Assembly (NCBI GenBank): GCA_020446505.1
Contig: JAGREN010000027.1
Coordinates: 1 to 63,746 of the forward strand
Direction of reading: 5' to 3'
Length of the DNA stretch: 63,746 nt
From: Novosphingobium sp.
GTDB lineage: Bacteria; Pseudomonadota; Alphaproteobacteria; Sphingomonadales; Sphingomonadaceae
Positions 17,212-54,626 of this stretch are shown here, piece by piece. The translations under genes and the position numbers were made by a program. Position 1 is the stretch's first letter, and each line of letters starts with the position of its first letter. Under the pieces are notes generated by a model. It ran no database searches and had not been told where the DNA came from. It worked only from the letters and a program-made list of their open reading frames with translations.

Positions 17212-17230
17212 TATCCTATAGTGCAACTTT
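17212..17230 (+). promoter_or_regulatory. Island operator copy, upstream of thiolase
   Basis: TATCC-tata-GTGCA-ACTTT, matching the right half of the island consensus TGCAC-N4-GTGCA-ATTTT and, in the left half, the TATCC variant also seen at 35085. It lies 28 bases upstream of the start at 17183, between that gene and the SMP-30 gene. Confidence 0.6.
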
Positions 17231-17269
17231 AGCAGAAGTGCTGCGCAAGGCAAGCGCGCTGGTCGCCTA

Positions 17270-18295
17270 TCAGAGCGGCCAGTTCGCTGCCGGAATGCCG
17301 GGCACTTTCATGCGTGCTCTCGCTATCGAGCCGCTGCCGCGCGACACCACGAAAAGGTCGCGCAGATCGGGCCCGCCCCATGCGAGATTGGTGGGAAAAT
17401 TGATCCGGGCTCCGGTCGGATCGTGGATCAAGGTCGAGAGCCTCCCCATGCGATCTACCGAAACGATACGGTTGGCGAACGGCAGGGTAACGAAAAGGCT
17501 CCCGTCCCGGTTCATCACAAGGCCGTCGCAATATCCCGTCAAGCCGCGTTGGCGGGCGGACATGGCCCGGATTTCCGCCGCCTTCTGGTCCGCCACCACC
17601 TTTCCCAGTTCAGGACTTGCGTATCGTTTGTTGGACAGGCCGCCATCCGCCGCTCGTTCCCATGTCACGATCCGGCCCTCGGCAGTCAGCGCGGCGAGAA
17701 GCTGGTCATCGTTCGACCCAAGACACAGGCCGTTCACGCCGCGCAGTCCGCGCGCAACGACGCGAGCTGAACCGTCGAGTGAGACGGCGAAGATGAACCC
17801 TTCTGCCTGCCTTGTACCGATATTCCCGACAGTCCAGCCGCTGTGGCTGCAATAGATGGTGCCGTCGCGCGCCACGACCGGACAGTTCGAAGCTACCAGT
17901 TTTCGCCCTTCCAGTTCCGCGACCAAAATCTCGACCGCGCCGGTCGCCGGATCGATCCGCCGCAGCGGTCCATCACGGCCATGCAGCGCGCCTACGCTGG
18001 CCGCGACAATGCGGCCCTGACCATCGAAGGCCATGCCACCAGTCGCGACAGGATCTCCGATATAGGACACGCTCCCGCCGGGCCGTCGCAATCCAACGGC
18101 CGCGTTTGAGCAAGAGAAGGCAATCGTTCCGTCCGGCGCTGTCACCAGCCCTTCGGCTCCTTCGATCCCTTCGATGACGACTTCGAAGTCGTCAGGCGAT
18201 AGATCCGGCGGGCGTTTTTCCAGCGCCCTTGCCAATGTAGCTGGGCCAGAGATCGACGCCAGAGCCGCAAGGGCAATAAGTTGTCGCCGGTTCAC
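17270..18295 (-). CDS. SMP-30/gluconolactonase/LRE family protein, exported
   Basis: 341 residues from a GTG at 18295 that begins a likely Tat signal peptide (NRRQLIALAALASISGPATL). The rest is a six-bladed beta-propeller of the SMP-30 lactonase type: GIEGAEGLVTAPDGTIAF, ATGGMAFDGQGRI, LVASNCPVVARDGTIYCS, RGVNGLCLGSNDDQL and GYCDGLVMNRDGSLFVTLPFANR. Such enzymes hydrolyse lactones using a divalent metal bound by Glu, Asn and Asp residues. It is the last gene of the DUF35/thiolase-like/crotonase operon, suggesting it opens a lactone made in the pathway. Other propellers of similar sequence are lyases, so lactonase activity is inferred. Confidence 0.82.
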   Translation of the reverse strand: MNRRQLIALAALASISGPATLARALEKRPPDLSPDDFEVVIEGIEGAEGLVTAPDGTIAFSCSNAAVGLRRPGGSVSYIGDPVATGGMAFDGQGRIVAASVGALHGRDGPLRRIDPATGAVEILVAELEGRKLVASNCPVVARDGTIYCSHSGWTVGNIGTRQAEGFIFAVSLDGSARVVARGLRGVNGLCLGSNDDQLLAALTAEGRIVTWERAADGGLSNKRYASPELGKVVADQKAAEIRAMSARQRGLTGYCDGLVMNRDGSLFVTLPFANRIVSVDRMGRLSTLIHDPTGARINFPTNLAWGGPDLRDLFVVSRGSGSIARARMKVPGIPAANWPL

Positions 18296-18308
18296 GACAC
18301 GGTGGAGA

Positions 18309-19100
18309 TCAGCGCCCTTGCCAGACCGGTGCGCGCTTTTCGGCGAAGGCACGGGGGCCTTCCTTCGAATCTTCCGTCGCAAGCACGATCTTGTTGCGCT
18401 CACGCGAGAGGCGGCGAAGGTCGGTATCGCTGCGGTCTACAGACTGGCGCGCCACGCGCAGGCTTTCGGTCACCGCGACAGGCGCATTGGCCATGATCGA
18501 GCGGGCGAGACCCAGCGCGGTTTCCATCAGGTTTTCAGGCTCGACCACCCGATTGACCATGCCATAGCCAGCCGCGAATTCGGCGGAGAACGCCTCACCG
18601 GTTGCGATCAGCTCGAGCGCGACGTTGCGCGGAAGGACGCGCGAGAGGCGTGAGTTACCGCCGCCATTGGCCATCAGGCCGCGCTTGACTTCGGGCAGGC
18701 CGAAACGCGTGCCAGTCGTGGCGACGATCATGTCACAGGCGAGGCACAGCTCTGTACCGCCGCCAAGTGCCGGACCGTCCACCGCCGCGATCCACGGCTT
18801 GTCCTTGATCGCATCGACGAAGCCCGCAAAACCCGCATCGTTCGGGCGCAGCTCCTGCACCCGGCCTGCTGCGATGACCTTAAGGTCCGCCCCGGCGCAA
18901 AACATGCCCGGCGTTGCCGAGGTGAGGATCGCGACCCGGATCGCCGGATCGGCCTCGACCCGGTCGACCGCGGCATTGAGCGCCTGCGCCGTCTCGATGT
19001 TGACGGCATTGCGCGCATCGGGCCGGTTGAACCGGATCAGCGCGATATGGTCTTCAACCACTTCGAAAAGCAGCGGCTCGGGTGCGGTGTCTTGGCTCAT
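18309..19100 (-). CDS. Enoyl-CoA hydratase/isomerase (crotonase family)
   Basis: 263 residues, normal for the family. The oxyanion-hole segments are seen: FCAGADLKVI around residues 65-75 and DGPALGGGTELCLACDMIVA around 110, followed by FGLPEVKRGLMANGG. The glutamate in GGTELCLACD is the position of one of the two catalytic glutamates of hydratases; the second position is occupied in the KRGLMANGG region by no obvious acid, so isomerase or another crotonase chemistry is possible. Operon with the thiolase-like gene (22-base gap) and the SMP-30 gene (13-base gap). Confidence 0.88.
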   Translation of the reverse strand: MSQDTAPEPLLFEVVEDHIALIRFNRPDARNAVNIETAQALNAAVDRVEADPAIRVAILTSATPGMFCAGADLKVIAAGRVQELRPNDAGFAGFVDAIKDKPWIAAVDGPALGGGTELCLACDMIVATTGTRFGLPEVKRGLMANGGGNSRLSRVLPRNVALELIATGEAFSAEFAAGYGMVNRVVEPENLMETALGLARSIMANAPVAVTESLRVARQSVDRSDTDLRRLSRERNKIVLATEDSKEGPRAFAEKRAPVWQGR

Positions 19101-19122
19101 CTCATGTCCTCGGTCGAAGCGG

Positions 19123-20313
19123 TCAGGTTTCGTCTCGGCTGAACACGAAAGCGGTGGACTTGGTCAAGCCGTTAGAGATCGTCGCGATGGCGCGCCTTGC
19201 GCCCGGCACCTGCCGTTCGCCGCAGCGGTCGCTCACCTGCGAGGCCGCCTCGATCATCTGGGTCATGCCGTGGAGGCGTCCTTCGCCCAGCGCCCCGCCG
19301 CCCGTGTTGATTGGTAGCTTCCCGCCAAGAGCGGCATGGCCATCGCGAAGGAAGGCAAGGCCTTCGCCGCGCTTGCAGATACCCAGGCCTTCCAGCCACA
19401 GGAATACGAAGGGGCTGAATCCGTCATAAAGATGGGCGTTGTCCATATCACCGGGCGCCATGCCGCTCGAAGCCCAGATGCGATCCGCAACCTGTTCGCA
19501 GCCAGTCCAGATGTCTTCCAGCGTCATCGGCACACCGGTCGGCGGCGAATGGGTTCCGGCGGCCATGCCGCTCAGCAGGGCTGGCTTTTGCCTGAGGTCG
19601 CGAGCTCGCTCTGCCGAAGTCAGCAGGATGGCCGCGCAGCCGTCCACCGGAATGTCGCAATCGAGGATCGACATCGGATCGGCGATCATGCGGGCATCGA
19701 GATAGTCGTCGCGCTCCAGCGTCTTGCCGAGCCAGTACCCGTTGGGATTGAGCTGGGTGTTCGCGCGGTTGTCGACGATGTAGCGCGCCATGTCCTCGCG
19801 CGAATAGCCGAACATCTCGAAGTAGCGGCGCAACACCGTCGCCGCCCAGGCTGGCGGCACGGAAAAGCCGAAGGGCGCGAAATACTGATCCTGCCCACTG
19901 GCATAGGCGCTGTCGAAGTTGATGTAGCTGCCTGCCGGGACGTGCAGCGCGCGATAGACCACGGCATGGCTGCACACCCCGCTCGCCACGGCCATTGCCG
20001 CATCGATAAACGCCTGAGTGACCATGCCGTTGGTCCAGCCGGTATAGGCGATCTGGTTCTGCACGCCGAGCTGTTCGCCGAGGTACCAGGGCGTCACCAC
20101 GTCGACGCCCTCCACCGTGCCCTTCGCGCCGCCATAGCGCGGCATGCCCGGCGAAGTCGCGATGCCATCGAGATCGCGCCGCGTCAGTCCTGCATCGGCA
20201 AGTGCCGTGTCGATCGCGTCCTTGGCCAGTTGCACCAGCGGCGTTTCAGACCGGCGGGTGAGCGCGGAATAGCCGATGCCCGCAACTGCGACCTTGTTGG
20301 CAAAAGCCCACAT
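19123..20313 (-). CDS. Cysteine-less thiolase-like protein, probable retro-aldolase subunit (Ltp2-like)
   Basis: 396 residues of thiolase fold (VAVAGIGYSALTRRSETPLV; the C-terminal part has NTGGGALGEGRLHGM). The nucleophile cysteine is missing: the segment around residues 90-98 reads YTGWTNGM. The GHPxG motif is replaced by GEGRLHG and the C-terminal cysteine is absent. A tyrosine in HLYDGFSPF (Tyr296) is conserved in lipid-transfer-protein-type thiolases. In steroid degraders such proteins pair with a DUF35 partner and cleave beta-hydroxyacyl-CoA by a retro-aldol reaction; here the DUF35 gene is immediately upstream and overlaps by one base (TGATG). The function is inferred. Confidence 0.8.
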   Translation of the reverse strand: MWAFANKVAVAGIGYSALTRRSETPLVQLAKDAIDTALADAGLTRRDLDGIATSPGMPRYGGAKGTVEGVDVVTPWYLGEQLGVQNQIAYTGWTNGMVTQAFIDAAMAVASGVCSHAVVYRALHVPAGSYINFDSAYASGQDQYFAPFGFSVPPAWAATVLRRYFEMFGYSREDMARYIVDNRANTQLNPNGYWLGKTLERDDYLDARMIADPMSILDCDIPVDGCAAILLTSAERARDLRQKPALLSGMAAGTHSPPTGVPMTLEDIWTGCEQVADRIWASSGMAPGDMDNAHLYDGFSPFVFLWLEGLGICKRGEGLAFLRDGHAALGGKLPINTGGGALGEGRLHGMTQMIEAASQVSDRCGERQVPGARRAIATISNGLTKSTAFVFSRDET

Positions 20314-20756
20314 CAGCTCTGCCCTCCTACGGCGCGGAACTGCGGCAAGGCGCAGTCTTCGCTGATGCGCTCGAATTCAACCTGCAACGGCATGCCAAGC
20401 CGCAGGTCTTCTGCTCGGGAACCGGGAAGGTTCGCCACGAGCAGCAGGTGCGGTTGCTCCACAAGCTCGACGATCCCGACCAGCAGCGGCAACTTGTCGG
20501 CAAATGCCGGGCCGGGCGAGTGATGGATTTCCGTCCAGGAAAACAGCTTGGCCTCACCGGACACGTCTTCGAATGCGAGATCGACCGAGCCACAGGCAGG
20601 GCAATTCATCGACGGCGCGTGGTTCCAGTGGCGACACTGGCGGCAGCGCTGAATTGCGAGGCGGCCTTCGTTCGCGGCCCGCCAGTAGTCGGCGCTGGCA
20701 TCGTCTGGAAACGGGCGCGGACGCACCGCTTCTTGCTTTTCGGAAGTGTCGCTCAC
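20313..20756 (-). CDS. DUF35 OB-fold protein with zinc ribbon, partner of thiolase-like protein
   Basis: 147 residues from a GTG at 20756 with GGAGAG upstream; a longer frame to 20783 exists but has no ribosome binding site. The N-terminal rubredoxin-like zinc ribbon is C-R-Q-C-R-H-W ... C-P-A-C (CxxC and CxxC), followed by the OB-fold (LFSWTEIHHSPGPAFADKLP). DUF35 proteins act as subunits of acyl-CoA thiolase-like enzymes and acetyl-CoA/ketone carboxylating systems. Directly adjacent to the cysteine-less thiolase-like gene, the pair probably forms an aldolase complex. The island operator lies 22 bases upstream of the start. Confidence 0.85.
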   Translation of the reverse strand: MSDTSEKQEAVRPRPFPDDASADYWRAANEGRLAIQRCRQCRHWNHAPSMNCPACGSVDLAFEDVSGEAKLFSWTEIHHSPGPAFADKLPLLVGIVELVEQPHLLLVANLPGSRAEDLRLGMPLQVEFERISEDCALPQFRAVGGQS

Positions 20757-20778
20757 CGGGTCACTCTCCACCAGATAT

Positions 20779-20797
20779 AGCACTCAAGTGCAATTTT
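20779..20797 (+). promoter_or_regulatory. Island operator copy, upstream of DUF35 operon
   Basis: AGCAC-tcaa-GTGCA-ATTTT, one of the best copies. It lies 22 bases upstream of the DUF35 GTG start, in the 156-base region shared with the divergent P450 gene, which has its own copy at 20881. Confidence 0.75.
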
Positions 20798-20853: not shown

Positions 20854-20882
20854 TTGACGCGCGATGCGGTTCGCCATAATTA
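20854..20882 (+). promoter_or_regulatory. Possible sigma-70-type promoter of the P450 operon
   Basis: TTGACG at 20854-20859 and, after 17 bases, TAATTA at 20877-20882 (or CATAAT at 20875 with a 15-base spacer). Transcription would start inside or just after the operator at 20881-20899, so a bound repressor would block it. Prediction from sequence only. Confidence 0.45.
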
Positions 20883-20899
20883 CACTTAATTGCAAAATT
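20881..20899 (+). promoter_or_regulatory. Island operator copy, at P450 transcription start region
   Basis: TACAC-ttaa-TTGCA-AAATT, directly after the possible -10 box and ending 13 bases before the TTG start of the P450 gene. The ribosome binding site AGGAGAGG follows at once. Confidence 0.65.
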
Positions 20900-20912: not shown

Positions 20913-22142
20913 TTGACCACACAGGCAACCCTCGAGGCAATCCCCGCGCATGTACCGCCCGAGCTGGTCGGCTCGTTCAATTTCTATACCTCCGAACAGA
21001 TGGTCCCGACGCCGCTGGGCGATCCGCAGGCAGCGACCAGCACCCTGCATTCCGGTCCGCCTGTGTTCTATGCGCCTAACAACACCCGAAATGGCGAAGG
21101 CACCTGGGTCGTGGTTCGCGCCGAGGACCAGCGCAAGGTCCTGCAGGACGGCATCACCTTTTCGAGCAACCGCCGGCTGTTTGCATCGGCGCTCGGCGAA
21201 GACTGGCCGCTGATCCCGCTGGAGATCGATCCGCCCGATCACGCCAAATGGCGCTCGCTGCTCAATCCGCTTTTGTCGCCCAAGCGCGTCGTGGCGCTCG
21301 AGCCAGCCGTGCGCGAACGCGCCGAGTTCCTGATCGAGGGCATCAAATCGCGCGGCAACGAATGCGAGATAATGAACGAGTTCTGCTTCCCGTTTGCGGT
21401 GAGCATCTTCCTGCAGTTCCTCGGCATCGGCAACGAGAACCTCGCCATGTTCGTCGACTGGGCGATGGACCTGCTGCACGGCGCTCCCGACAAGCGCACT
21501 GCAGCCGCTCGACGCTTCATCGCTTACCTCGATGATCTGCAGGCCGAACGCCGCAAGAAGCCGACCGACGACTTCATGTCCTTCGTCACCCAAGCCCAGG
21601 TCGACGGCCGCGGGATGACCGAACAGGAAGTTCGCGCCATGAGCGTGCTGCTTCTGATCGGCGGGCTGGACACTGTTGCGGCTGCACTCGGCTTCGATTT
21701 CTACTACCTCGCGCAAAATCCGGACCAGCAGGCACTGCTTCGCGCGGAGCCTGCAAGGCTGGTTCTGGCGGCAGAAGAATTGCTGCGCGCCTATCCGACC
21801 GTCACACCGACGCGCAAGGCAACCGTCGATGTCGTGCTCAACGGCGCGCCGATCAAGGCAGGCGATCTCGTGGCCTGCCCGTCGATGACAGCCAACCGCG
21901 ATCCGGCGGAATTTAACGATCCCGATTCCATTATCCTCGACCGCGAAGACAACCGCCACGTCGCCTTCGCCTATGGCGTCCACCGCTGCCTCGGCTCGCA
22001 TCTCGCCCGCCGCGAGATCGTCATCGGCCTTGAGGAATGGCTGGCGCGGATCGGTCCGTTCCGCATCAAGGAAGGCACGACGCCGATCACGCACGGCGGC
22101 TTCGTCTTCGGGGTCCACGACCTCGTACTGACCTGGGATTGA
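20913..22142 (+). CDS. Cytochrome P450, CYP101 (P450cam)-like
   Basis: 409 residues. TTG start with a strong ribosome binding site, AGGAGAGG. The I-helix oxygen-activation motif is GGLDT at 250-254, as in P450cam; ExxR is Glu289-LLR292; the haem ligand is Cys359 in YGVHRCLGSHLARRE. The C-terminal block resembles P450cam (ARREI..LEEWL...F.I). It should hydroxylate an alicyclic or terpenoid-type substrate with electrons from a ferredoxin; a three-cysteine ferredoxin follows after 11 bases. No ferredoxin reductase gene is nearby. Operon with ferredoxin and sulfatase. The CYP subfamily is not assigned, and similarity was judged by eye. Confidence 0.92.
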   Translation: MTTQATLEAIPAHVPPELVGSFNFYTSEQMVPTPLGDPQAATSTLHSGPPVFYAPNNTRNGEGTWVVVRAEDQRKVLQDGITFSSNRRLFASALGEDWPLIPLEIDPPDHAKWRSLLNPLLSPKRVVALEPAVRERAEFLIEGIKSRGNECEIMNEFCFPFAVSIFLQFLGIGNENLAMFVDWAMDLLHGAPDKRTAAARRFIAYLDDLQAERRKKPTDDFMSFVTQAQVDGRGMTEQEVRAMSVLLLIGGLDTVAAALGFDFYYLAQNPDQQALLRAEPARLVLAAEELLRAYPTVTPTRKATVDVVLNGAPIKAGDLVACPSMTANRDPAEFNDPDSIILDREDNRHVAFAYGVHRCLGSHLARREIVIGLEEWLARIGPFRIKEGTTPITHGGFVFGVHDLVLTWD

Positions 22143-22153
22143 GGAGCGCAACC

Positions 22154-22348
22154 ATGCGAATAAAGATCGATGGCGCGAAATGTCAGGGCAATGCCCGCTG
22201 CTGGGCGCTGGCGCCCGACATGTTCGAACTGAACGACGAAGGCTACATGGAAGAAGGCGTCATCGACGTCCCTGAAGGTGAGGAGAAACGCGCCTCCCGT
22301 GCCGCGCGAGCCTGCCCCGAGCGCGCTCTCACCATAATCGACGAATAG
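22154..22348 (+). CDS. Small [3Fe-4S]-type ferredoxin
   Basis: 64 residues, ATG at 22154 with GAGGAGC overlapping the P450 stop. Three cysteines only: Cys10, Cys16 (CQGNARC) and Cys54 (ACPERAL). The position where a [4Fe-4S] ferredoxin has its second cysteine is Asn13, so a [3Fe-4S] cluster is expected. Such small ferredoxins feed electrons to bacterial P450s. It sits between the P450 and sulfatase genes, with 3 bases to the latter, so it is the probable redox partner of the P450. CYP101 members normally use a [2Fe-2S] partner, which makes the pairing unusual. Confidence 0.9.
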   Translation: MRIKIDGAKCQGNARCWALAPDMFELNDEGYMEEGVIDVPEGEEKRASRAARACPERALTIIDE

Positions 22349-22351
22349 TCG

Positions 22352-24697
22352 ATGCGGGCGGAGAGGACAGGATCGCGGCAGTTTCGACAGGCGTTGCTGG
22401 GTTGCGCTGCGACCGGCAGCGTCCTGGCAGCGTCGGTAGTCTCCGCCAGCCCGCCCGGCGGCCAGACCACCCCGGCCCCGCCACCAGGCGCGACACTGGA
22501 AACGGCCGGCCCGCCCAAATGGCCTGAACCGGCAAGAGCACCTGCTGGCGCGCCCAACGTCCTCATCATCATGACCGACGACGTGGGTTTCGGATCGACC
22601 TCCACTTTCGGCGGCCCCGTTCCCACAACAACGTTCGATGCGCTGGCGCGTGAGGGCCTGCGCTACAATCGCTTCCATACCACCGCAATCTGTTCGCCGA
22701 CCCGCGCTTCGCTGCTTACCGGGCGCAATCCGCAGGATGTCGGCGTGGGCTATGTGACCAACTGGTCGAGCGGGTTCGACGGCTATAATTCGATGATCCC
22801 GAAAAGCGCGGGCACCCTGCCGCAAGTGCTGCGCGCAAACGGCTACGACACGGCCATGTTCGGCAAGGGCCATATTACGCCGGAATGGGAACAGGGACCG
22901 AACGGTCCGTTCGACAGATGGCCCACGGGCCTTGGCTTCGATTACTTCTACGGCTTCCTCGGTGCCGACACGAGCGCCTTTCAGCCGTCGCTGATCGAGA
23001 ACACGCGGCCGTCGCTCAAACCGCGCGAACCGGATTACCACCTTGACCGCGACCTTGCCGATCACGCTATCGACTGGATCGCCGAGCAGCGCGCCACAAC
23101 GCCCGACCGGCCCTTCTTTATCTACCTCGCGCCGGGTACCGCCCATGCCCCAAACCACGCGCCCAGGGAGTGGCTGGAGCGATTTCGCGGCAAGTTCGAT
23201 GGCGGTTGGGACAAGCTGCGAGAGGAAATCGTAAGCCGCCAAAGGAAGCTCGGGGTCATTCCACCAGGCACGCAGGATGCGCCGCGTCCCGAAACCCTGC
23301 CTCGGTGGGCCGATCTCTCACTTGAACGCCAGCGACTTTATGCCCGCTACATGGAGGCCTATGCGGCCTCTCTCGCCTATGCCGACCACGAAATCGGCCG
23401 CGTGATCGCCTCGCTGCGCGATAGTGGTGAGATCGACAATACGATGATCGTCTATATCCAGGGCGACAACGGAGCGAGCGCAGAAGGCAGTTTCGACGGC
23501 AAGCTGTTCGAGCAGTCTGCTCTGGCAGGCGTGAAGGAAGACCCGGCCTACGCCGAGAAGCATATCGACGATATCGGGACCGAGAGGGCTTACAACCTCA
23601 ACACCGGTGGGTGGGGCTGGGCGATGAACGCGCCGTTCCCCTGGGCGAAGCGCTATGGCTCGCATCTTGGCGGTACGCGCAACGGCATGGTCATATCGTG
23701 GAAGGGGCACATTGCCGATCGCGGAGGTCTGCGAAGCCAGTACCTGCACGTCAGCGACATCATGCCGACCGTGCTCGAAGCAGCAGGCATTGCCGCGCCC
23801 GAGCAACTCAATGGCGTGCGCCAGAAGCCCGTTACCGGAATCAGCGCAGCCTATACCCTCAAGTCCAGGACAGCGCCGTCCCGCCGCACCAGCCAGATTT
23901 TCGCCATGAGCGAAAACCTGGCGATCTATCGCGACGGTTGGATGGCCTCGAGCAAGCCGAAGGTGACGCCATGGGATGCAGTGCCACCTGCGCCTGTCAA
24001 ACTGGCGGACAGAAGTTGGGAACTTTACAATCTCGACCGCGACTTCAGCCAGTCGCGCGATGTGGCCAAGGACTATCCGGAACGGCTGTCCTCACTCGTC
24101 GGAGAATTCTGGAATGAGGCCCGCAATGGCCAGATCTTCCCGATCCATTCCACCGATGGCCAGCAGAAGGGCCGGCCCGATCCCAATCGCGACAGACGGC
24201 AATTCGTCTACACCCGGCCAGTCACGCAGGTCGCCGAAGCGGCTGCACCGCACATTGTCGGGCGCTCCTTCACGATCGAGGCCGACCTTGTTGCCGGTGA
24301 GGCGACCAACGGCGTACTCGTCGCACATGGCGGCAGGTTCAGCGGCTATTCGCTGTTCATGGACAAGGGGCGGCCGGTCTTTACCTACAACCTCACCCCG
24401 GCTCACCTGACACGCATCGAAGCGACTGCGCCGCTGATGCCTGGGCCGCACCGCATCGCCCTCACCTTCGCGATGGACGAGGAGAAGGGCCGTTCGCCCG
24501 CGACCGTCAGGATCATGGTGGACGGCAAGGAAGTGGCGTCAGGCCGCGTGCCGCAAACCTTTGCGCTCGTCGTCTCTCACAGCGAGGGTTTCGACGTCGG
24601 AGCGGACAATGTCAGCGCCGTCGATCCCGGATACGAAACAGAAAACAGCCGGTTCAGCGGGGTGCTGAACCGGCTGGTATTCTTGCTGTCAAACTGA
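22352..24697 (+). CDS. Arylsulfatase, exported, with C-terminal extra domain
   Basis: 781 residues. The N-terminus has a basic stretch and a hydrophobic segment typical of a signal peptide. The catalytic formylglycine signature CSPTRASLLTGR begins at Cys114 and metal-binding DD is at 76-77 (IIMTDDVGFG). A further motif GKGHITPEW follows, matching the second sulfatase signature region. Residues about 640-781 form a beta-rich, concanavalin-like C-terminal region (FTIEADLVAGEATNG ... SGYSLFMDKGRPVFTYNL). It hydrolyses sulfate esters and needs a formylglycine-generating or anSME maturase, not seen here. It starts 3 bases after the ferredoxin gene. Confidence 0.92.
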   Translation: MRAERTGSRQFRQALLGCAATGSVLAASVVSASPPGGQTTPAPPPGATLETAGPPKWPEPARAPAGAPNVLIIMTDDVGFGSTSTFGGPVPTTTFDALAREGLRYNRFHTTAICSPTRASLLTGRNPQDVGVGYVTNWSSGFDGYNSMIPKSAGTLPQVLRANGYDTAMFGKGHITPEWEQGPNGPFDRWPTGLGFDYFYGFLGADTSAFQPSLIENTRPSLKPREPDYHLDRDLADHAIDWIAEQRATTPDRPFFIYLAPGTAHAPNHAPREWLERFRGKFDGGWDKLREEIVSRQRKLGVIPPGTQDAPRPETLPRWADLSLERQRLYARYMEAYAASLAYADHEIGRVIASLRDSGEIDNTMIVYIQGDNGASAEGSFDGKLFEQSALAGVKEDPAYAEKHIDDIGTERAYNLNTGGWGWAMNAPFPWAKRYGSHLGGTRNGMVISWKGHIADRGGLRSQYLHVSDIMPTVLEAAGIAAPEQLNGVRQKPVTGISAAYTLKSRTAPSRRTSQIFAMSENLAIYRDGWMASSKPKVTPWDAVPPAPVKLADRSWELYNLDRDFSQSRDVAKDYPERLSSLVGEFWNEARNGQIFPIHSTDGQQKGRPDPNRDRRQFVYTRPVTQVAEAAAPHIVGRSFTIEADLVAGEATNGVLVAHGGRFSGYSLFMDKGRPVFTYNLTPAHLTRIEATAPLMPGPHRIALTFAMDEEKGRSPATVRIMVDGKEVASGRVPQTFALVVSHSEGFDVGADNVSAVDPGYETENSRFSGVLNRLVFLLSN

Positions 24698-44732: not shown

Positions 44733-44785
44733 CAGGCTACGTCCTCGCAATTCTTATGAGCCGCACCTCCCGATGTGCGGATAAC

Positions 44786-44804: not shown

Positions 44805-44883
44805 CAGGTGAAGTCAACTGCGCTCCGTGCTATCGCTCCAAATGCGGCGAACGAGCCGGTCAAGTCGATCAGGAGAGAATGGG

Positions 44884-45539: not shown

Positions 45540-45565
45540 GACCGCGGGCATCACTGTCCGCGGTC
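45540..45565. terminator. Hairpin between NTF2-like gene and second PQQ dehydrogenase
   Basis: GACCGCGG (45540-45547) pairs with CCGCGGTC (45558-45565) around a 10-base loop, overlapping the 3' end of the convergent PQQ gene. No T-run; terminator-like only. Confidence 0.45.
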
Positions 45566-47632: not shown

Positions 47633-47633
47633 C

Positions 47634-49169
47634 TCAGCCCCCGATGGTCCGCTCTGTCGGCCAGTATTTCTGGCGCAGCGCCTTCTTGTTGACCTTGCCC
47701 ATTACCGTGCGCCCGATGTCGTCGACGAAATCGTAGCTGCGCGGACACTTGAACCCGGCTAAGGCGGCGCGGCAGAAGGCGTTGAGTTCGTCCGCGCTTG
47801 GCGGATTTGCCGGGTCTTCGGGAATGACCAGCGCCTTCACTTCCTCGCCCATCTCGGCATTGGGAACGCCGAGCACGGCAACGTCGGAGACCTGCGGGTG
47901 GCCCATCAGCACATGCTCGGCCTCGGCGGGATAGATGTTGACGCCCCCGGACACGATCATGTCGGAAACCCGGTCGGTGATGAACAGATAGCCTTCCTCG
48001 TCGACATAGCCGACTTCGCCCAGCGTGAAGACGCCCGGCGCGATGTGCGCGGCGGCGGTCTTTTCGGGATCGCCTTCGTAGATGATCCCGCGCCCGCTGG
48101 TGTCGCGGAAATAGACCTGGCCTTCCTTGCCCGCACCAAGCTCTCCGCCATCCTCGCCGATGATGACCGTCTCGTATGGCGGCTGCGCCTTGCCGACCGA
48201 ACCGGGGCGCTCAAGCCATTCCTGCGACGAGATGAAGTTCGTCGTGCCTGCCTCGGTCCCGCCGTAGGCTTCGGCCAGCACCGGCCCGAACCACTGGATC
48301 ATCGCACGCTTGACCTCGCGCGGGCAGGCAGCCCCGGTATGGGCGAGGCGCTGCATGCTGGACACGTCGTACTTGGCGCGCACTTCCTCGGGCAGGGCGA
48401 GAAGCCGCTGGAAATGCGTCGGCACCATGGTCGATCCGGCGATGCGATGCTTGTCGATCAGGCGAAGCGCGCCTTCGGCATCGAAATGCTCCATGACTAC
48501 CAATGCCGTTCCGGCGAACAGGCTGCGCACCTGCACCAGCGGCCCGGTGTGATAAAGCGGGCTGACCACCAGCGAGGGTGACGGGATCGCCTTGGGACGC
48601 TGGAGTTCAGCATAGCCCGCGATCGTATCGGCGGTCGGCCAATACGGCGGCGGTGTCAGCGTTGCCTTGGGTGTTCCTGTCGTGCCGGATGTGTAGTGCA
48701 AGTGGGGAAGCGGGGCGCGGTCTGTCGGCGGTTCCGCGTCGGATGCGGCGGCCAGCCACTCATCCCATGAAATGAGCCCGGCGCGCGGCTCGCAACGCCA
48801 GCCGACGACCAAGGGAACTCCGGCTTCCGCTGCGGCGGCGAGACCGACCTCGGCCGTTTCGGGGCCGACCAGAAGCACCGACGTGCCTGAGTCCTTGAGG
48901 ATGTACGCAACCTCGCCAGCAGTCAGGTGATAACTCACCGGCACAGTCGACACGCCCGCCTCGATCCCCGCAACGAAGGCGAGAACGTTTTCCGCAGCAT
49001 TGGGCGCAAAGACCGCAACGCGGCGCTTGCCGTCCACGGCGGCAGCCATGGCATTGGCAGCGCGGTTGAGGATCGGATCGACCTCGTTCCACGTCAGACT
49101 GGTGCGCTCGTCCACCAGCGCGAGACCGTCGCGACGCTCGGGCGCGACCGATTGCAGCGTCAGAGACAT
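47634..49169 (-). CDS. Acyl-CoA synthetase (AMP-binding, ANL superfamily)
   Basis: 511 residues. ATP/AMP motif HYTSGTTGTPKATL, EAYGGTEAGTTNF, then the C-terminal hinge DRVSDMIVSGGVNIYPAE and the catalytic lysine in GKVNKKALRQKYW. The ligase forms an acyl-CoA from a free acid, ATP and CoA. The start overlaps the ACAD stop by one base. In the operon it sits with an APH kinase and an ACAD10/11-like dehydrogenase, so a hydroxy acid substrate is plausible, but the family includes short, medium and aromatic acid ligases. Confidence 0.93.
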   Translation of the reverse strand: MSLTLQSVAPERRDGLALVDERTSLTWNEVDPILNRAANAMAAAVDGKRRVAVFAPNAAENVLAFVAGIEAGVSTVPVSYHLTAGEVAYILKDSGTSVLLVGPETAEVGLAAAAEAGVPLVVGWRCEPRAGLISWDEWLAAASDAEPPTDRAPLPHLHYTSGTTGTPKATLTPPPYWPTADTIAGYAELQRPKAIPSPSLVVSPLYHTGPLVQVRSLFAGTALVVMEHFDAEGALRLIDKHRIAGSTMVPTHFQRLLALPEEVRAKYDVSSMQRLAHTGAACPREVKRAMIQWFGPVLAEAYGGTEAGTTNFISSQEWLERPGSVGKAQPPYETVIIGEDGGELGAGKEGQVYFRDTSGRGIIYEGDPEKTAAAHIAPGVFTLGEVGYVDEEGYLFITDRVSDMIVSGGVNIYPAEAEHVLMGHPQVSDVAVLGVPNAEMGEEVKALVIPEDPANPPSADELNAFCRAALAGFKCPRSYDFVDDIGRTVMGKVNKKALRQKYWPTERTIGG

Positions 49170-50395
49170 CAGCGGCGCCCTTCAGCAACCTGCGCCACGA
49201 CCAGCTTGGCGAGCTGCGACATGTGCGCTTCGTCAGGGCCGTCAGCCATGCGCAGATAGCGCGCCGTGGTGAAGATCGTCGCCAGCGGGAAATCGCGGCT
49301 GAAGCCGATCGCGCCATGTACCTGCATGGCCCGGTCAGCGACGATCTGCGCCATATTCGGCGCGACGATCTTGATCGCGGCGATCAGATCCTTCGAAGCC
49401 TTGCCGCCGCGCCGGTCGATGGCGTCTGCGGTCTTGAGCGTGAGCAGGCGCGCCTGTTCGATCTCGCAGAACGAGCGGGCGATATCTGCCCGCACCATGC
49501 CCTGATCGGAGAGCTTGCGACCGAAGGCTACGCGCTCGTCCGCGCGCTTGCACATCAGTTCGAGTGCGCGCTGGGCCATGCCGATCACGCGCATGGCGTG
49601 GTGCATGCGGCCCGGCCCGAGGCGACCTTGCGCGATCTCGAAGCCGCGGCCTTCGCCAAGCAGCATGTTCTCCTTGGGCACGCGCACGTTGGTGAACTCG
49701 ATTTCGCAGTGTCCGCCCGGCATGTGATAGGTGCCGATCACGTCGAGCGGCCGGATCACGTTTATGCCCGGCGTATCGGCGGGAATGATGATCTGCGAAT
49801 GTTGCTGGTGGCGTGGCCGGTCCGGATCAGGCGTATGGCCGAGCAGGATGTAGACCTTGCAGCGCGGGTCCATGGCACTTGAAATCCACCACTTGCGGCC
49901 ATTGATGACGTAGTCGTCGCCGTCGGCTTCGATCTTCGTGGCGATATTGGTCGCGTCCGAGGAAGCTACGGCAGGCTCGGTCATCACATAGGCGGACTTG
50001 ATATCGCCATCGAGCAAGGGATGCAGCCAGCGTTCGCGCTGTTCTTCCGTGCCGTACTTGGCGAGGATTTCCATGTTCCCGGTGTCGGGCGCATTGCAGT
50101 TGAAGAACTCCGACGCACCCAGAACACGGCCCATTTCCTCGGCCAGCGGCGCATATTCAAGGTTCTTGAGACCGGGACTGTAGGGCGCGTAGTCTTCTGG
50201 CAGGAACAGGTTCCACAGCCCTTCGGCCTTGGCCTTTTCCTTGATCGCCTCGCCGCCGGGCCACGGCGTCCAGGCATTGGCCGGATCGTGGAGGAATGCC
50301 TCGCGCTCCGCCTCGATCGGATAGATGTGCTGGTCCATGAAGGAGATCAGCCGCTCGCGCAGATCGCGAACCTTGGGGCTGTATTCGAAGTCCAC
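49169..50395 (-). CDS. Acyl-CoA dehydrogenase, ACAD10/11-like
   Basis: 408 residues, GTG start with GAGGAGATAGACCG. ACAD motifs: GNMEILAKYGTEEQRERWL, YVMTEPAVASSDATNI, WWISSAMDPRCKVYILLGHTPD, then QVHGAIGFSRDFPLATIFT and RMADGPDEAH. The C-terminal DGPDEAH form is typical of the ACAD10/ACAD11 group, which in animals is fused to an APH-type kinase; here the kinase is a separate gene two positions upstream. That group helps convert 4-hydroxyacyl-CoA through a phosphorylated intermediate. Function by analogy. Confidence 0.88.
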   Translation of the reverse strand: MDFEYSPKVRDLRERLISFMDQHIYPIEAEREAFLHDPANAWTPWPGGEAIKEKAKAEGLWNLFLPEDYAPYSPGLKNLEYAPLAEEMGRVLGASEFFNCNAPDTGNMEILAKYGTEEQRERWLHPLLDGDIKSAYVMTEPAVASSDATNIATKIEADGDDYVINGRKWWISSAMDPRCKVYILLGHTPDPDRPRHQQHSQIIIPADTPGINVIRPLDVIGTYHMPGGHCEIEFTNVRVPKENMLLGEGRGFEIAQGRLGPGRMHHAMRVIGMAQRALELMCKRADERVAFGRKLSDQGMVRADIARSFCEIEQARLLTLKTADAIDRRGGKASKDLIAAIKIVAPNMAQIVADRAMQVHGAIGFSRDFPLATIFTTARYLRMADGPDEAHMSQLAKLVVAQVAEGRR

Positions 50396-50410
50396 CGGTC
50401 TATCTCCTCA

Positions 50411-51151
50411 TCAAAGCGTCACGCCGCCATCGGCGACGATGGTCTGGCCGGTCACGAAGCCGGCCAGCGGGGAAGCGAGGAACAAGGCAACGCCTGCCAT
50501 TTCCTCGATGGTGCCGAAGCGGTGCAGCGGGATCTTGGACAGCGCTTTCTCGCGCCGTTCGGGGTGATCCATCGTCACCTTGGTCATCTTGGTTTCGACG
50601 AGGCTCGGCGCGATGCCGTTCACCCGCACGCCCTCACCTGCCCACGCCAGAGCCAGCGTGCGCACTAATTGTACCGCGCCAGCCTTCGACGAGGCATAGG
50701 CCGGATTCGCCAGCGTTGCCTTGAAGGCGCCAATCGAGCTGACGACGATGATCGAACCCTGCCCTGCCGCCAGCGCCTCGTGAAAGCGCTCCGATATCTG
50801 CAACACGCTCGACAGGTTGACTGCCACGACCTTGTCAAAATGCTCGCGCTGGAACTCCTGCCGTTTGTAAAGCACCGCGCCCTGCGAATGGACCAGCACG
50901 TCGAGCCCGTTGACAAACGGATCGGGCGCGTCGGCGATGGAAGCGGGATCGCTGACGTCGACTTGCGAATAGCCCAGCCCTTCAAGGTCCGAACCGTCGT
51001 CCGCGCTGTAGTCTGCTACCGACGCGCGCGTACCCCAGACATGGACTTGCGCTCCGCGCGCACGAAACGCCTGCGCAATCCCGTTGCCGATACCGCTCGA
51101 TCCACCGACGACGAGCACGCGCTTGCCCGAAAAATCGAGTTCGCCGCTCAT
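50411..51151 (-). CDS. Short-chain dehydrogenase/reductase
   Basis: 246 residues from the ATG at 51151 that overlaps the APH stop (ATGA). NAD(P)-binding GGSSGIGNGIAQAF, central VHSQGAVLYKRQEF, catalytic YASSKAG and the C-terminal VADGGVTL. The dinucleotide preference is not decided by the short loop after the second strand. It oxidises a hydroxyl group or reduces a ketone; in the operon a 3-hydroxyacyl-CoA dehydrogenase-like role is possible. Second gene of its operon. Confidence 0.92.
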   Translation of the reverse strand: MSGELDFSGKRVLVVGGSSGIGNGIAQAFRARGAQVHVWGTRASVADYSADDGSDLEGLGYSQVDVSDPASIADAPDPFVNGLDVLVHSQGAVLYKRQEFQREHFDKVVAVNLSSVLQISERFHEALAAGQGSIIVVSSIGAFKATLANPAYASSKAGAVQLVRTLALAWAGEGVRVNGIAPSLVETKMTKVTMDHPERREKALSKIPLHRFGTIEEMAGVALFLASPLAGFVTGQTIVADGGVTL

Positions 51152-52188
51152 TGCCCCAAAACTCCCGTTTTCATCCAGCGCCGCGCGCGTTCGAACAGCC
51201 ACTTGGCGCGCTTGTGCAGGCGCTCGCCCACGTCTTGCGGAGCCTTGCCGGCGCAGGCCCGCGCATAGGTCCCTTCAAGCAGGATGCCGAGTTTGTAGCA
51301 GGCGAAGACCCCGTACCAGTCGACGCGTTCGACGCTACGCGTGGCATGCGCGGCATAGTGTGAAACCAGTTCCTCGGCGGTGGGAAAGCCGTTCCACGGC
51401 TCGATCGACAACATGCCGCCATCCGGTCCTTGCGGCCAGGTGGCGAGCACCCAGCCGAGATCGATCAGCGGGTCGCCTATCGTCGCCAGTTCCCAGTCGA
51501 TGATCGCGGCAAGTTCCGGGCTGTCATTGCGGTACATGACATTTGCGAGGTGGTAGTCGCCATGCAGGATGCCCGGCACGAAGCAGTCAGGCCGTGCGCT
51601 TTCCAGCCATTGAGCGACGCTCGCGACGTCGCCGAGTTCTGCCGGCCCCGGCCATCCCTGAAGTTCCGTGTAGCTTTCGAGCTGGCTGCCCCAGCGCGCT
51701 ACTTGCCTTTCGAGAAAGCCGTCGGTCTTGCCGAAATCGCCAAGGCCAATCTGATCGGGCACGAGCGCGTGCAAGGCTGCCAGTCCTTCGACGAGAGCAA
51801 GACCCATGCGTTGCTGCACGGCTGGGTCGTGGTGCGTCTCTGGAATTCCATTCTGCGGATTGAAGCCTTCGATCGGCTCCATCAGGTAGAAGGCCGCGCC
51901 GATGACGTCCTCATCCGGGCAGGCGGCAATAAGCCGCGGATGCGGCACCTCGCTCGCTGCGATCGCAGCGAGCAGCCGCCCCTCGCGCCGCATCGTCTCG
52001 TTGCTGTTGGCGCGGGCATGGACGGGCGGACGGCGCAGCACAAAGTCGCGTCCGCTTCGGGAAAAGCGCAGCAGCACGTTCTGGCTGCCGCCAGCGAGCT
52101 TGGCCACATCGCCGAGCGGTCCACTGCCGAGACCCTTCGCATCCATCCACTGAGTCAGTCGATCGAGATCGACCCCCAAGTCACCCAT
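51148..52188 (-). CDS. APH-type phosphotransferase family protein, ACAD10/11 kinase-like
   Basis: 346 residues. Kinase motifs: catalytic HGDYHLANVMYR (HGD at 209-211) and the metal-binding IIDWELATIGDPLIDLGW (Asp231). GGSQNVLLRFSRSG near the N-terminus is the nucleotide-binding loop. This family includes aminoglycoside kinases, but the acyl-CoA-gene context and ACAD neighbours point to the branch that phosphorylates hydroxyacyl-CoA, as in animal ACAD10/11 and bacterial LvaA of levulinate catabolism. First gene of its operon, operator 45 bases upstream. No LvaB-like small subunit is seen. Confidence 0.85.
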   Translation of the reverse strand: MGDLGVDLDRLTQWMDAKGLGSGPLGDVAKLAGGSQNVLLRFSRSGRDFVLRRPPVHARANSNETMRREGRLLAAIAASEVPHPRLIAACPDEDVIGAAFYLMEPIEGFNPQNGIPETHHDPAVQQRMGLALVEGLAALHALVPDQIGLGDFGKTDGFLERQVARWGSQLESYTELQGWPGPAELGDVASVAQWLESARPDCFVPGILHGDYHLANVMYRNDSPELAAIIDWELATIGDPLIDLGWVLATWPQGPDGGMLSIEPWNGFPTAEELVSHYAAHATRSVERVDWYGVFACYKLGILLEGTYARACAGKAPQDVGERLHKRAKWLFERARRWMKTGVLGQ

Positions 52189-52233
52189 CTTGCATCCACC
52201 TTTCGTAAGGCAGCTTCATGCACCGATCATTTC

Positions 52234-52252
52234 TGCATTGCAATGCAATTTT
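52234..52252 (+). promoter_or_regulatory. Island operator copy, upstream of APH kinase operon
   Basis: TGCAT-tgca-ATGCA-ATTTT. It overlaps the last base region of the CoA-transferase stop codon and lies 45 bases upstream of the APH start at 52188. Confidence 0.7.
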
Positions 52253-53508
52253 CAATCGGCGCGCACCTTCTCCCTCTGCCGGATGACGCCCTGACCCTCC
52301 AGTTTCGCCAGTTCGTCCGGCTCGCACGACAGCCAGTCGGCAAGGACTTCGCGGCTATGCTCGCCTACTTGAGGCGGGCGATAGCGATAGTCGGCAGGCG
52401 TCGCAGAGAGCTTGCCCGGATAGGCGACCGTCGGGATTGCAACGCCATCGTCGCGGGTAAAGCGGTGCACCGTCTTGCGATGCTCGACGAAGGGATCGGC
52501 GAATACATCGGCAATCGTATTGACCGGCCCGGCGGGGATGCCTTTGGCGACCAGTCGTTCGATCAGCGGCCCACTCTCGAACTCGCGCACGACTTCCTGC
52601 ACCCTGGCTTCGATGGCGTCGCGGTTGATGAGACGGGACCGGCCAGTCCTGAAACGCTCGTCGTCGGCCAGTTCCGGCACGCCCATCTCATTGCAGAAGG
52701 CGCGAAACTGGCCGTCGTTGCCAATGGCGATAATCATGATGCCGTCGGCAACTTCGAAGGTCTTGTAAGGGACAACTGTCGGATGACGGTTGCCGAGCCT
52801 GCCGGGGTTGATGCCGCCGACCAGCCAGTTCGATGCCTGGTTCGCCAGCATCGCGATCTGCGTATCGAGCAGCGACACGTCGATCTGCTGACCCTCGCCC
52901 GTTCGCTCTGCATGGCGAAGCGCCATCATGATGGAGACAGTCGCGTACATGCCGGTCGACAGGTCGGCCATGGCGACGCCCGCGCGCAGCGGCCCGCCGT
53001 GCTCCTCGCCGGTTACCGACATGAACCCGCCCATGCCCTGCGCGACAAAGTCGTAGCCGCCCCTGTCGGCATAGGGGCCGGACTGCCCGAAGCCGGTGAT
53101 CGAGCAGTAGACGATGCTCGGATTGAGCGCGGCAACCGAAACGTAGTCGAGGCCGTATTTCGCAAGCCCGCCGACCTTGAAATTCTCGACGAGGATGTCG
53201 GCCTCGGCAGCAAGCCTGCGGACCAGTGCCGCTCCTTCGGGATTGGCGATATCGATGGCAGCCGACCGCTTGTTGCGGTTGGCGCAGAGGTAGTAGGCGC
53301 TTTCCTGCGGGTCTTCCGAGCCGTCGGGCAGGCTTAGAAATGGCGGACCCCATCCGCGCGTATCATCGCCCTTGCCGGGCAGTTCGACCTTGAGCACGTC
53401 GGCGCCGAAGTCGGCGAGAATCTGGGTCGACCATGGCCCGGCAAGGACTCGTGAAAGATCGAGAACCTTGATGCCTTCAAGAGCGCGTTTCGGCGTCGCT
53501 TCACTCAT
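52252..53508 (-). CDS. Type III CoA-transferase (CaiB/BaiF family)
   Basis: 418 residues. Starts LEGIKVLDLSRVLAGPWSTQ; the catalytic aspartate Asp215 is in DVSLLDTQIA; ANRNKRSAAIDIANPEG and FVAQGMGGFMSVTGEEHGG are typical. The single-domain form with an intact active site contrasts with the twin-domain protein at 30-32.7 kb. It transfers CoA between carboxylic acids. It follows the MDR gene by 13 bases in a two-gene operon. Confidence 0.92.
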   Translation of the reverse strand: MSEATPKRALEGIKVLDLSRVLAGPWSTQILADFGADVLKVELPGKGDDTRGWGPPFLSLPDGSEDPQESAYYLCANRNKRSAAIDIANPEGAALVRRLAAEADILVENFKVGGLAKYGLDYVSVAALNPSIVYCSITGFGQSGPYADRGGYDFVAQGMGGFMSVTGEEHGGPLRAGVAMADLSTGMYATVSIMMALRHAERTGEGQQIDVSLLDTQIAMLANQASNWLVGGINPGRLGNRHPTVVPYKTFEVADGIMIIAIGNDGQFRAFCNEMGVPELADDERFRTGRSRLINRDAIEARVQEVVREFESGPLIERLVAKGIPAGPVNTIADVFADPFVEHRKTVHRFTRDDGVAIPTVAYPGKLSATPADYRYRPPQVGEHSREVLADWLSCEPDELAKLEGQGVIRQREKVRAD

Positions 53509-53521
53509 CGTATCGCTCTCC

Positions 53522-54535
53522 TCAACCTAGCCGGACCAACGTGCGGCCAAGGTTCGAACCATCGAACAGTCCAAGGAATGCGCCAACGGCATTGTCGATG
53601 CCCTCACGCACGGTATCGGCCTGCTTTAGCAGTCCAGCCTTGTGCCACGCCTTCATGTCGGCAAGGAAATGCTGCTCGAGATCCATGTGATCGGTGGCGA
53701 TAAAGCCCTTGAGCTCAAGGCGCTTGGTCATGATTTGCGTGAGGTTGCGCGGCGGCGTCACAGCGCCAGCTGCATTGTATTGCGAGATCATCCCGCAGAT
53801 CGCCATGCGCGCGAAGGGATTGGCGAGAGCAATGGCAGCGTGGAGATGGTCGCCGCCGACATTGTCGAAATAGAGATCGATGCCAGACGCACCAATTGCC
53901 TTGACCTCGCGCGCCAGCGCCTTGGTGAGGTTGTCTTCGGCCTTGTAGTCGATCACGCCGTCCAGCTGCAGCACGTCGCGCAGGAACGCGGCCTTGTGCT
54001 CTCCGCCTGCCGCGCCGATGACCTTGTGCCCCTTGATCTTCGCCATCTGGCAGACGAGCGAACCGACGCCGCCCGATGCCGCCGAAACGAACACGACGTC
54101 TCCGGGAGTCAGCCTGCCGATGTGCAGCAAACCAGCATAGGCGGTCAGGCCCGTTACACCCGCGAAGCCGAGCCACGATTGCGGCGGCAGTTCGGAACCG
54201 TCGCGCAACTGCAATGCATCGGCGGGCGCGGTAAAGGCCTCTCTCCAGCCGAGACGCGAGAACACCAGATCGCCGGGAGCGAAACCGGAATCGCTTGATG
54301 CGATGACTTCTCCAATAGCCGGACCTTCCATTGCTGCGTCGAGCTGGAACGGCGGCACATAGCTTTTCGCATCGTCCATCCGTCCGCGCATGGCAGGATC
54401 GATCGCCATGAACAGGTTGCGCACCTGAACTTCGCCGGCACCGGGAGCAGGCACCTCGCGTTCAGCCATGGCGAAGTCTTCCGGGACCGGCGATCCGACG
54501 GGTCGCCGCTTCAATTGCACCTCGCGCGAAATCAC
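53522..54535 (-). CDS. NADP-dependent medium-chain oxidoreductase (2-alkenal/prostaglandin reductase-like)
   Basis: 337 residues, GTG start after GGGAGAGAG. No zinc ligands; MDR fold of the leukotriene B4/2-alkenal reductase type: YAGLLHIGRLTPGDVVFVSAASGGVGS, AKIKGHKVIGAAGG, YFDNVGGDHL and the C-terminal LGLFDGSNLGRTLVRLG. It reduces the C=C of alpha,beta-unsaturated ketones or aldehydes with NADPH. First gene of the operon; the operator lies 67 bases upstream. Confidence 0.9.
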   Translation of the reverse strand: MISREVQLKRRPVGSPVPEDFAMAEREVPAPGAGEVQVRNLFMAIDPAMRGRMDDAKSYVPPFQLDAAMEGPAIGEVIASSDSGFAPGDLVFSRLGWREAFTAPADALQLRDGSELPPQSWLGFAGVTGLTAYAGLLHIGRLTPGDVVFVSAASGGVGSLVCQMAKIKGHKVIGAAGGEHKAAFLRDVLQLDGVIDYKAEDNLTKALAREVKAIGASGIDLYFDNVGGDHLHAAIALANPFARMAICGMISQYNAAGAVTPPRNLTQIMTKRLELKGFIATDHMDLEQHFLADMKAWHKAGLLKQADTVREGIDNAVGAFLGLFDGSNLGRTLVRLG

Positions 54536-54602
54536 AATTCTCTCTCCCGGTCCTTGGCTTTACGGGTGGGAGCCTTAGCTTCCCTGAGGTCCGGATTCAA
54601 CT

Positions 54603-54626
54603 ATTTCTGCACTCAAGGTCAAAATT
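54603..54626. promoter_or_regulatory. Island operator copy between MDR and thiolase-like genes
   Basis: TGCAC-tcaa-GGTCA-AAATT on the plus strand (54608-54626), or TGACC-ttga-GTGCA-GAAAT on the minus strand. It lies 67 bases from the MDR start and 45 bases from the divergent thiolase-like start. Confidence 0.55.

Follow-up and report, generated by a model that had tools for sequence, protein, structure and literature searches.

A palindromic operator-like motif and a TetR-family protein predicted to form one local regulon of a catabolic island in Novosphingobium sp.

We analysed 63,746 nucleotides of contig JAGREN010000027.1 (Novosphingobium sp., assembly GCA_020446505.1), and this whole stretch is called the window below. 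Eleven copies of a 24-bp palindrome were found in front of the genes of a catabolic island, and they very probably serve as operators of one catabolic regulon, in which the TetR-family protein of the island would act as repressor of 12 units comprising 31 genes; binding and repression are deduced from sequence comparison. An initial annotation of the window had proposed a single local regulon with this TetR protein as its candidate regulator. This prediction is supported by the near-confinement of the motif to the island, its conservation in orthologous promoters and its co-occurrence with close relatives of the TetR protein, and the span of the regulon is corrected to 15.9-56.2 kb. The sites, previously thought to lie before nearly every operon, lie in fact before all 12 predicted units of this span, where unit boundaries were taken from gene direction and spacing.

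All eleven copies were recovered at the positions reported earlier (the starts 32704 and 54603 were those of the 24-mer and the remaining nine those of the core), and they align without gaps in one register, with the four-base spacing between half sites kept in 11 of 11 sites as had been claimed. The motif had been described as a 19-bp element consisting of a core and one A/T tail on the right; the core and the tail stand, but the element is actually a 24-bp palindrome that has an A/T arm at each end, and a consensus covering all eleven sites is AAWWTTGCAC-N4-GTGCAAWWTT. The centre bases vary between sites and the arms are kept. Motif discovery by expectation maximisation (EM) in 25 intergenic stretches, each padded with 25 bases and searched with no use of the earlier site list, gave a 24-bp palindrome with a consensus close to AAAATTGCAC-N4-GTGCAATTTT. 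The log-likelihood ratio at width 24 was 110.6, compared with 67.1-79.2 in eight letter-shuffled sets that were given fewer starts and rounds than the real set, and nine of the eleven sites were in the resulting list, those at 35023 and 35080 being absent from it. In the gene table used for this discovery and for the matrix scoring below, four genes had approximate ends. A 19-bp motif without symmetry was rejected, as it reached a ratio of 76.5 (50.7-57.7 in shuffles) with mixed sites, versus 110.6 for the 24-bp form. The bare core TGCAC-N4-GTGCA was also rejected as a signal, because 31 places in the window match it with at most two mismatches against 38.2 expected, which is not above chance. 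The exact core TGCACNNNNGTGCA is present in two copies (sites 6 and 9 below), and these are its sole exact places in the whole draft genome (3,180,832 bases in 178 contigs, 94% complete).

Scores were obtained with a symmetrised matrix in a leave-one-out (LOO) manner, in which each site was scored with the matrix from the other ten. The eleven sites score 15.3-30.3 bits, and the best other place in the window, at 63580, scores 12.0. In 40 windows simulated with an order-1 Markov model, the mean maximum was 11.4 and the largest 18.0; because the Markov maxima reach 18.0, the sites reported at 35028 (15.3) and 35085 (18.9) are borderline on score alone. A weaker twelfth copy had been suggested at 60460, and we dismiss it since it scores -4.1 and ranks 313th. 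The core region at 1-15.9 kb, where no copy had been noticed, has a matrix maximum of 5.7.

Each of the eleven sites, which are given here without strand and with LOO scores in bits, has a predicted gene downstream of it in at least one direction. Site 1 (17207-17230, AAAATTATCCTATAGTGCAACTTT, 23.5) is upstream of a thiolase gene (15933-17183, minus strand), and 21 of its 24 letters are identical in the same-genus relative G052, in which the same operons are spread over several contigs. Site 2 (20774-20797, GATATAGCACTCAAGTGCAATTTT, 24.2) is upstream of the unit for a DUF35 protein, a thiolase, an enoyl-CoA hydratase and an SGL-like protein if this unit starts at the GTG at 20756; the site is intergenic only with this DUF35 start, and in-frame GTGs are present also at 20771 and 20783. 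Site 3 (20876-20899, ATAATTACACTTAATTGCAAAATT, 30.3) precedes the P450, ferredoxin and sulfatase genes on the plus strand. Two sites are upstream of the TonB receptor gene on the minus strand, namely site 4 (27698-27721, GTTTTTGCCTCTTGGTGCAAGTTT, 20.1) and, 36 bp from it, site 5 (27734-27757, AATTTTGCTAGTCAATGCAAAATT, 21.4). Site 6 (32704-32727, AAAATTGCACATGAGTGCAATAAA, 22.3), with the exact core, precedes the CoA-transferase, luciferase-like monooxygenase and esterase genes (minus strand), and the weakest, site 7 (35023-35046, CAATTTATACCGTGATGCAGGTTT, 15.3), precedes the enoyl-CoA hydratase and MFS transporter genes (minus strand). Site 8 (35080-35103, AATCCTATCCCCAAGTGCAGAATT, 18.9) is upstream of the plus-strand unit of two acyl-CoA dehydrogenases and TetR, and all its 24 letters are identical in G052, the nearest relative (L110:622). 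Site 9 (44781-44804, ATAACTGCACGATGGTGCAATTTT, 25.2) has the exact core and lies in the divergent promoter of a PQQ alcohol dehydrogenase unit (minus strand) and a SnoaL gene (plus strand). Site 10 (52229-52252, ATTTCTGCATTGCAATGCAATTTT, 25.6) is upstream of the minus-strand unit for an APH-like kinase, a short-chain dehydrogenase (SDR), an acyl-CoA dehydrogenase, a ligase and a PQQ alcohol dehydrogenase. Site 11 (54603-54626, ATTTCTGCACTCAAGGTCAAAATT, 22.8), like site 9, stands between a divergent gene pair, with alcohol dehydrogenase and CoA-transferase genes on the minus strand and a thiolase-like gene on the plus strand. The sites had been called intergenic; with the gene starts used here nine of the eleven are wholly so, and those at 27734 and 52229 overlap the last two bases and the last base, respectively, of a neighbouring gene.

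For wider searches we used a sequence-only profile (R1), which was built from the eleven sites and so fits them by construction. The genome-wide scan that the initial annotation had proposed showed hardly any occurrence of the motif outside the island: across the draft genome R1 returned nine of the eleven sites at E<1 and one other place up to E 10, while sites 7 and 8 (35023 and 35080) were missed up to the same E. The sole match outside the island, C158:2413-2440 (E 1.08; L111 2415), is 331 bp before the gene for the beta-subunit of NAD(P) transhydrogenase (PNTB), and with an E of 1.08 it is possibly due to chance.

Conservation in orthologous promoters was likewise borne out. In eight intergenic regions aligned with those of G052, identity is 92% inside sites (239 of 261 bases) and 70% outside them (400 of 574), which gives a Fisher probability of 2e-13 with bases taken as independent. 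A matrix made solely from the window detected 121 sites of at least 16 bits in 42 fetched loci, against 2.3 in Markov controls; this count is enriched because each locus was picked for containing either a profile hit or a match to TetR, and it includes duplicates. In 39 loci, from which the duplicates L139, L145 and L147 were dropped and in which L146 (near-same as L141, from another record) was kept, 79 of 115 sites precede an island-gene orthologue by at most 200 bp, as do 7% of random positions. None of the 115 is inside such an orthologue, compared with 42% of random positions; only orthologues of at least 40% identity were used, and a site counted as "inside" when more than 40 bases separated it from both ends of the gene. 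Without L146 the numbers are 78 of 113 upstream and 0 inside. The median distance from site centre to orthologue start is 72 bp. Gene order varies among these loci, and the site recurs before genes for the double CoA transferase, enoyl-CoA hydratases, the pimC-like dehydrogenase, PQQ dehydrogenase, the TonB receptor and TetR.

The motif also follows the TetR protein from genome to genome. In a survey of 396 other genomes of the family, in which the TetR and profile searches drew the same genomes as judged by their handles, a profile match at E<=0.7 was present in 12 of 16 genomes with a TetR protein at least 43% identical to that of the island. Among the 380 others it was present in 25 (p 1e-10), and at least two sites were present in 5 of the 16 and in 4 of the 380. 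Since at most six candidates per genome were scored in the TetR survey, TetR relatives were possibly missed in some of the 380 genomes. In a targeted profile search at E<=3, matches were obtained in 13 of the 16 TetR-bearing genomes, in 1 of 16 that lack a TetR match and in 1 of 11 having only paralogues of 29-37% identity; within the genus, matches were seen in all 3 genomes whose TetR is at least 43% identical (G052, G039 and G030) and in 0 of 8 others tried. When short loci were fetched by TetR similarity alone, a site of at least 16 bits was found in 13 of 20 with TetR of at least 40%, in 3 of 15 at 29-38% and in 1 of 23 whose TetR match is remote or partial, L013-L032 being short or remote TetR matches. 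The first of these counts is for short loci only, and for all loci of at least 40% it becomes 23 of 30, with L057 and L058 lying within L147 and L145. A score of at least 14.8 within 300 bp upstream of TetR was obtained in 11 of 30 TetR rows of at least 41% identity, and these 11 include two Emcibacter records, L148 and L149, which have 47-48% G+C and belong to another order (Emcibacterales).

The TetR-family protein, which is the proposed binder of the sites, has 256 amino acids and is encoded at 37619-38389 on the plus strand, as the third gene of unit 7 and on the same strand behind two acyl-CoA dehydrogenase genes. It matches PF00440 with 51.3 bits (cut-off 24; E 9.8e-14) and is the sole regulator obtained from Pfam scans of the predicted island genes. 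Its AlphaFold2 model is almost all helical (pLDDT 80, pTM 0.70), and a Foldseek search with this model placed KstR chains at ranks 1-6 (TMq 0.53-0.57) and Thermus FadR, whose TMq of 0.57-0.60 is the highest in the list, at ranks 13-15. Several of the KstR and FadR entries carry bound CoA thioesters, and this weakly suggests a CoA thioester as inducer. The recognition helix reads VAKRT(L/I)YN in all 30 rows of at least 41% identity, near-duplicates included; among 15 rows at 27-38%, nine have VAQRT, five have VAPKT, VSSRT, IAHRT or VAQKT, and one (L082) has VAKRT. A plasmid search gave two remote TetR matches (38% and 32%). The TetR-like gene of one Emcibacter record (L149 1872-2633) has a stop near its start, which is shown as X.

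In the mechanism we propose, a TetR dimer would bind the 24-bp palindrome through the half sites TTGCAC and GTGCAA, four bases apart and flanked by A/T arms, and the bound protein would keep all 12 predicted units off. The substrate, or more likely a CoA-thioester intermediate, would then bind TetR, so that the repressor would leave and the genes of the pathway would be expressed together. Through the sites at 35023 and 35080 TetR would control its own gene, and the circuit is probably autoregulated, because TetR is the third gene of a unit preceded by these sites. From these data we infer repression in preference to activation, a CoA thioester as inducer and, as the compound that the pathway breaks down, an alicyclic or terpenoid-like acid. 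A KstR-like local repressor is the best-supported reading of the mechanism, and the pathway is perhaps terpenoid-like.

Several observations weigh against the regulon proposed here. The place right before the TetR gene (37556-37579, no strand) is degenerate, scoring 3.7 in the window and 2.1 at its equivalent in G052, while L140-L144, L146 and L147 carry 11-18 there, and it is probably weak or inactive in the window. Upstream of TetR, 19 of the 30 relative rows do not reach a score of 14.8, and 36 of the 115 sites in relative loci are not before a recognised orthologue. In the targeted search, 3 of the 16 TetR-bearing genomes (G214, G246 and G323) had no profile match; the loci of G214 and G246 nonetheless hold matrix sites of 16-20 bits near TetR. 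In G427, about 200 kb separate the single match from the TetR gene. Among the 25 of 380 genomes that have a profile match and no close TetR, 21 have a single place, and the strong matches of this group are at G425:C1:1253197 (E 0.013), G245:C2:230894 (E 0.017), G095:C59:40059 and G118:C1:959231 (E 0.013-0.052 for the four); some of the matches in the 25 genomes may be chance and some may belong to paralogues. The 38% paralogue of L082 has the VAKRT helix and no site in its 2.7-kb locus. Conversely, sites are present near paralogues of 28-30% in L009 (1355), L079 (1246) and L083 (1424), so a wider group of TetR proteins may use related operators. A sigma-70 scan of 44.7-54.7 kb found two promoters versus 1.6 expected, and none could be placed confidently. 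Finally, a second TetR paralogue, 37-44% identical and with the helix VSRQT or VAKQT, adjoins a site in L140 (3636-4316), L142 (3637-4404), L143 (1656-2543) and L144 (1889-2641); its gene is divergent from that of the double CoA transferase, and the site is between the two.

On this last ground, the sites could be thought to be bound by that second paralogue, or by another regulator elsewhere in the genome, with the island TetR only travelling along. The VAKQT helix of three of the four paralogues is one residue off VAKRT, and the 25 genomes that have a match and no close TetR point the same way. We consider this improbable, because Pfam scans did not find the second paralogue among the predicted genes of the window's island, the sites adjoin TetR even in distant relatives including the two Emcibacter records, and only 3 of 15 loci of 29-38% paralogues have a site. 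That the island TetR binds the sites as an activator or a dual regulator is also rather unlikely: the median distance of 72 bp would permit activation at some promoters, while the sites in divergent promoters and the site pairs fit occlusion, and the catabolic TetR proteins compared here, KstR (PMC1995591) and EdcR (PMC8700777), are repressors.

Two further explanations deal with the motif itself, and both are very remote. The half sites TGCAC and GTGCA resemble those of NtrC, and elements of NtrC or sigma-54 might be suspected. In the NtrC consensus GCAC and GTGC are separated by seven bases, while the spacing here is four in 11 of 11 sites; the sigma-54 consensus has GG and GC 12 bp apart and no two-fold symmetry. 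Also against these elements, the motif goes with TetR and is largely restricted to one island. Palindromes that arose by chance in A/T-rich intergenic DNA, or a repeat element that spread by copying, could be argued from the bare core being no commoner than in shuffles. The full motif, however, is far over its shuffled and Markov controls, its centre bases vary while the arms are kept, and conservation in relatives with rearranged gene order refutes both. Operators of one catabolic regulon under the island TetR remain our preferred reading of the sites.

Groups of two or three sites spaced by 18 or 36 bp were seen repeatedly, in the window and in relatives, mostly at the promoter of the TonB receptor or an equivalent place. 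In the window the pair 27698/27734 (span 27698-27757) is before the TonB receptor, and tandem sites were found also in L108 (6619/6637/6655, span 6619-6678), L135 (18172/18208, span 18172-18231) and L112 (12234/12252/12288, span 12234-12311). Around 124 sites, counted without duplicate loci and without L146, the offsets 18 and 36 have nine second places each of at least 5 bits, and the next offset has five. Adjacent tandem palindromes can share one A/T arm, and such shared arms may account for part of the 18-bp signal. Next to site 11, at a distance of 18 bp, is a possible weak site (54621-54644, no strand), which scores 4.2 in the window and 19.9 at the G052 equivalent.

The 12 units were annotated with Pfam for units 1, 4, 5, 6, 9, 10 and 11 and with Pfam and NCBIfam for unit 2. 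On the minus strand are unit 1 (thiolase, 15933-17183), unit 2 (SGL-like protein, enoyl-CoA hydratase, lipid-transfer thiolase and ChsH2-like DUF35 protein, 17270-20756), unit 4 (TonB-dependent receptor, 24742-27666), unit 5 (carboxylesterase, luciferase-like monooxygenase and double CoA-transferase III, 27756-32672), unit 6 (MFS transporter and enoyl-CoA hydratase, 32739-34999), unit 8 (aldehyde dehydrogenase, MFS transporter, flavin reductase, enoyl-CoA hydratase and PQQ alcohol dehydrogenase, 38403-44750), unit 10 (PQQ alcohol dehydrogenase, acyl-CoA ligase, acyl-CoA dehydrogenase, SDR and APH-like kinase, 45551-52188) and unit 11 (CoA-transferase III and zinc alcohol dehydrogenase, 52252-54535). 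On the plus strand are unit 3 (CYP101-like P450, small ferredoxin and sulfatase, 20913-24697), unit 7 (two pimC/pimD-like acyl-CoA dehydrogenases and TetR, 35163-38389), unit 9 (SnoaL-like protein, 44827-45522) and unit 12 (thiolase-like protein, 54672-56168).

The P450 of unit 3 is nearest to P450cam/CYP101, and the small, single-cluster ferredoxin encoded between P450 and sulfatase (22154-22348, plus strand) is probably its electron donor. The two acyl-CoA dehydrogenases of unit 7 resemble pimC and pimD, yet they score far under the cut-offs of those models, and the luciferase-like protein had no match in PDB at 1e-20. The two PQQ alcohol dehydrogenase genes look like duplicates, since a 300-nt stretch (43666-43965 versus 46578-46877) is 79% identical between them. 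The set of P450 and ferredoxin, luciferase-like monooxygenase, flavin reductase, PQQ alcohol dehydrogenases, CoA transferases, ligase, acyl-CoA dehydrogenases, hydratases, thiolases, the DUF35 and lipid-transfer pair, esterase, sulfatase, TonB receptor and MFS transporters suggests an alicyclic or terpenoid-like substrate, which would be broken down by oxidation and beta-oxidation-like steps. Genes past 56.2 kb (enoyl-CoA hydratase, hydroxyisobutyrate dehydrogenase, MFS transporter, second P450 and integrase) have no matrix site. The integrase, a tyrosine integrase at 61041-62186 on the plus strand, is just beyond the regulon, and no tRNA at the island edge was found in the window.

With these results, an operator and a regulator are predicted for a 31-gene catabolic island, and the motif marks genes of the same pathway in other genomes despite changed gene order, including genes away from the regulator. 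The assignment makes the pathway testable, because the purified regulator could reveal the inducer and hence the substrate, and it could serve as a biosensor. In the literature, the string TGCACNNNNGTGCA was not found, and searches for TTGCAC/GTGCAA with TetR, for TetR operators and regulons of sphingomonads and for the enzyme combination brought up no account of motif or regulon, with coverage that is thin for subscription journals in both cases.

Among known systems, PheR of Sphingobium (phenanthrene) is also a sphingomonad catabolic repressor but is of the IclR family and has a different operator (PMC13273656). Thermus FadR, of the TetR family and with acyl-CoA-bound entries, is 15-16% identical to the island TetR over the aligned part. 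EdcR of Caenibius tardaugens is, like the protein proposed here, a sphingomonad TetR of a catabolic cluster; it is reported to be a repressor of estradiol catabolism with the operator TnnCnnTACnAnTnGTAnnGnnA and a TetR_C_11 (PF16859) domain (PMC8700777). Exact copies of this operator were found neither in the window nor in 14 relative loci, including L147 from Croceicoccus estronivorus MH-B5, a cultured strain with orthologues of most of the island. None of the TetR proteins of the window, L147 and L148 matched PF16859 at E<=0.1. Closest is KstR, which is the best PDB match of the island TetR by both sequence and fold. According to PMC1995591, KstR is the TetR repressor of mycobacterial lipid and cholesterol catabolism, with a palindrome (TnnAACnnGTTnnA) near the promoters of many catabolic genes and before its own gene, which it represses; both regulons include divergent promoters and a paired site. 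The island TetR protein is not a KstR, however, since it scores 45.2 bits against a KstR equivalog cut-off of 280, and its motif, TTGCAC-N4-GTGCAA with A/T arms, is not the TnnAACnnGTTnnA reported in that source and stands in another phylum before another gene set. We put forward only tentatively, as a view with somewhat less than even chances, that a sphingomonad counterpart of the KstR regulon exists, in which a VAKRT subfamily of TetR and its operator, distributed from Sphingomonadaceae to Emcibacter, would govern an undescribed pathway for cyclic terpenoid- or steroid-like acids, with tandem operators of 18-bp pitch for cooperative control of the outer-membrane receptor. The predicted regulon is new and well defined, and its kind is familiar.

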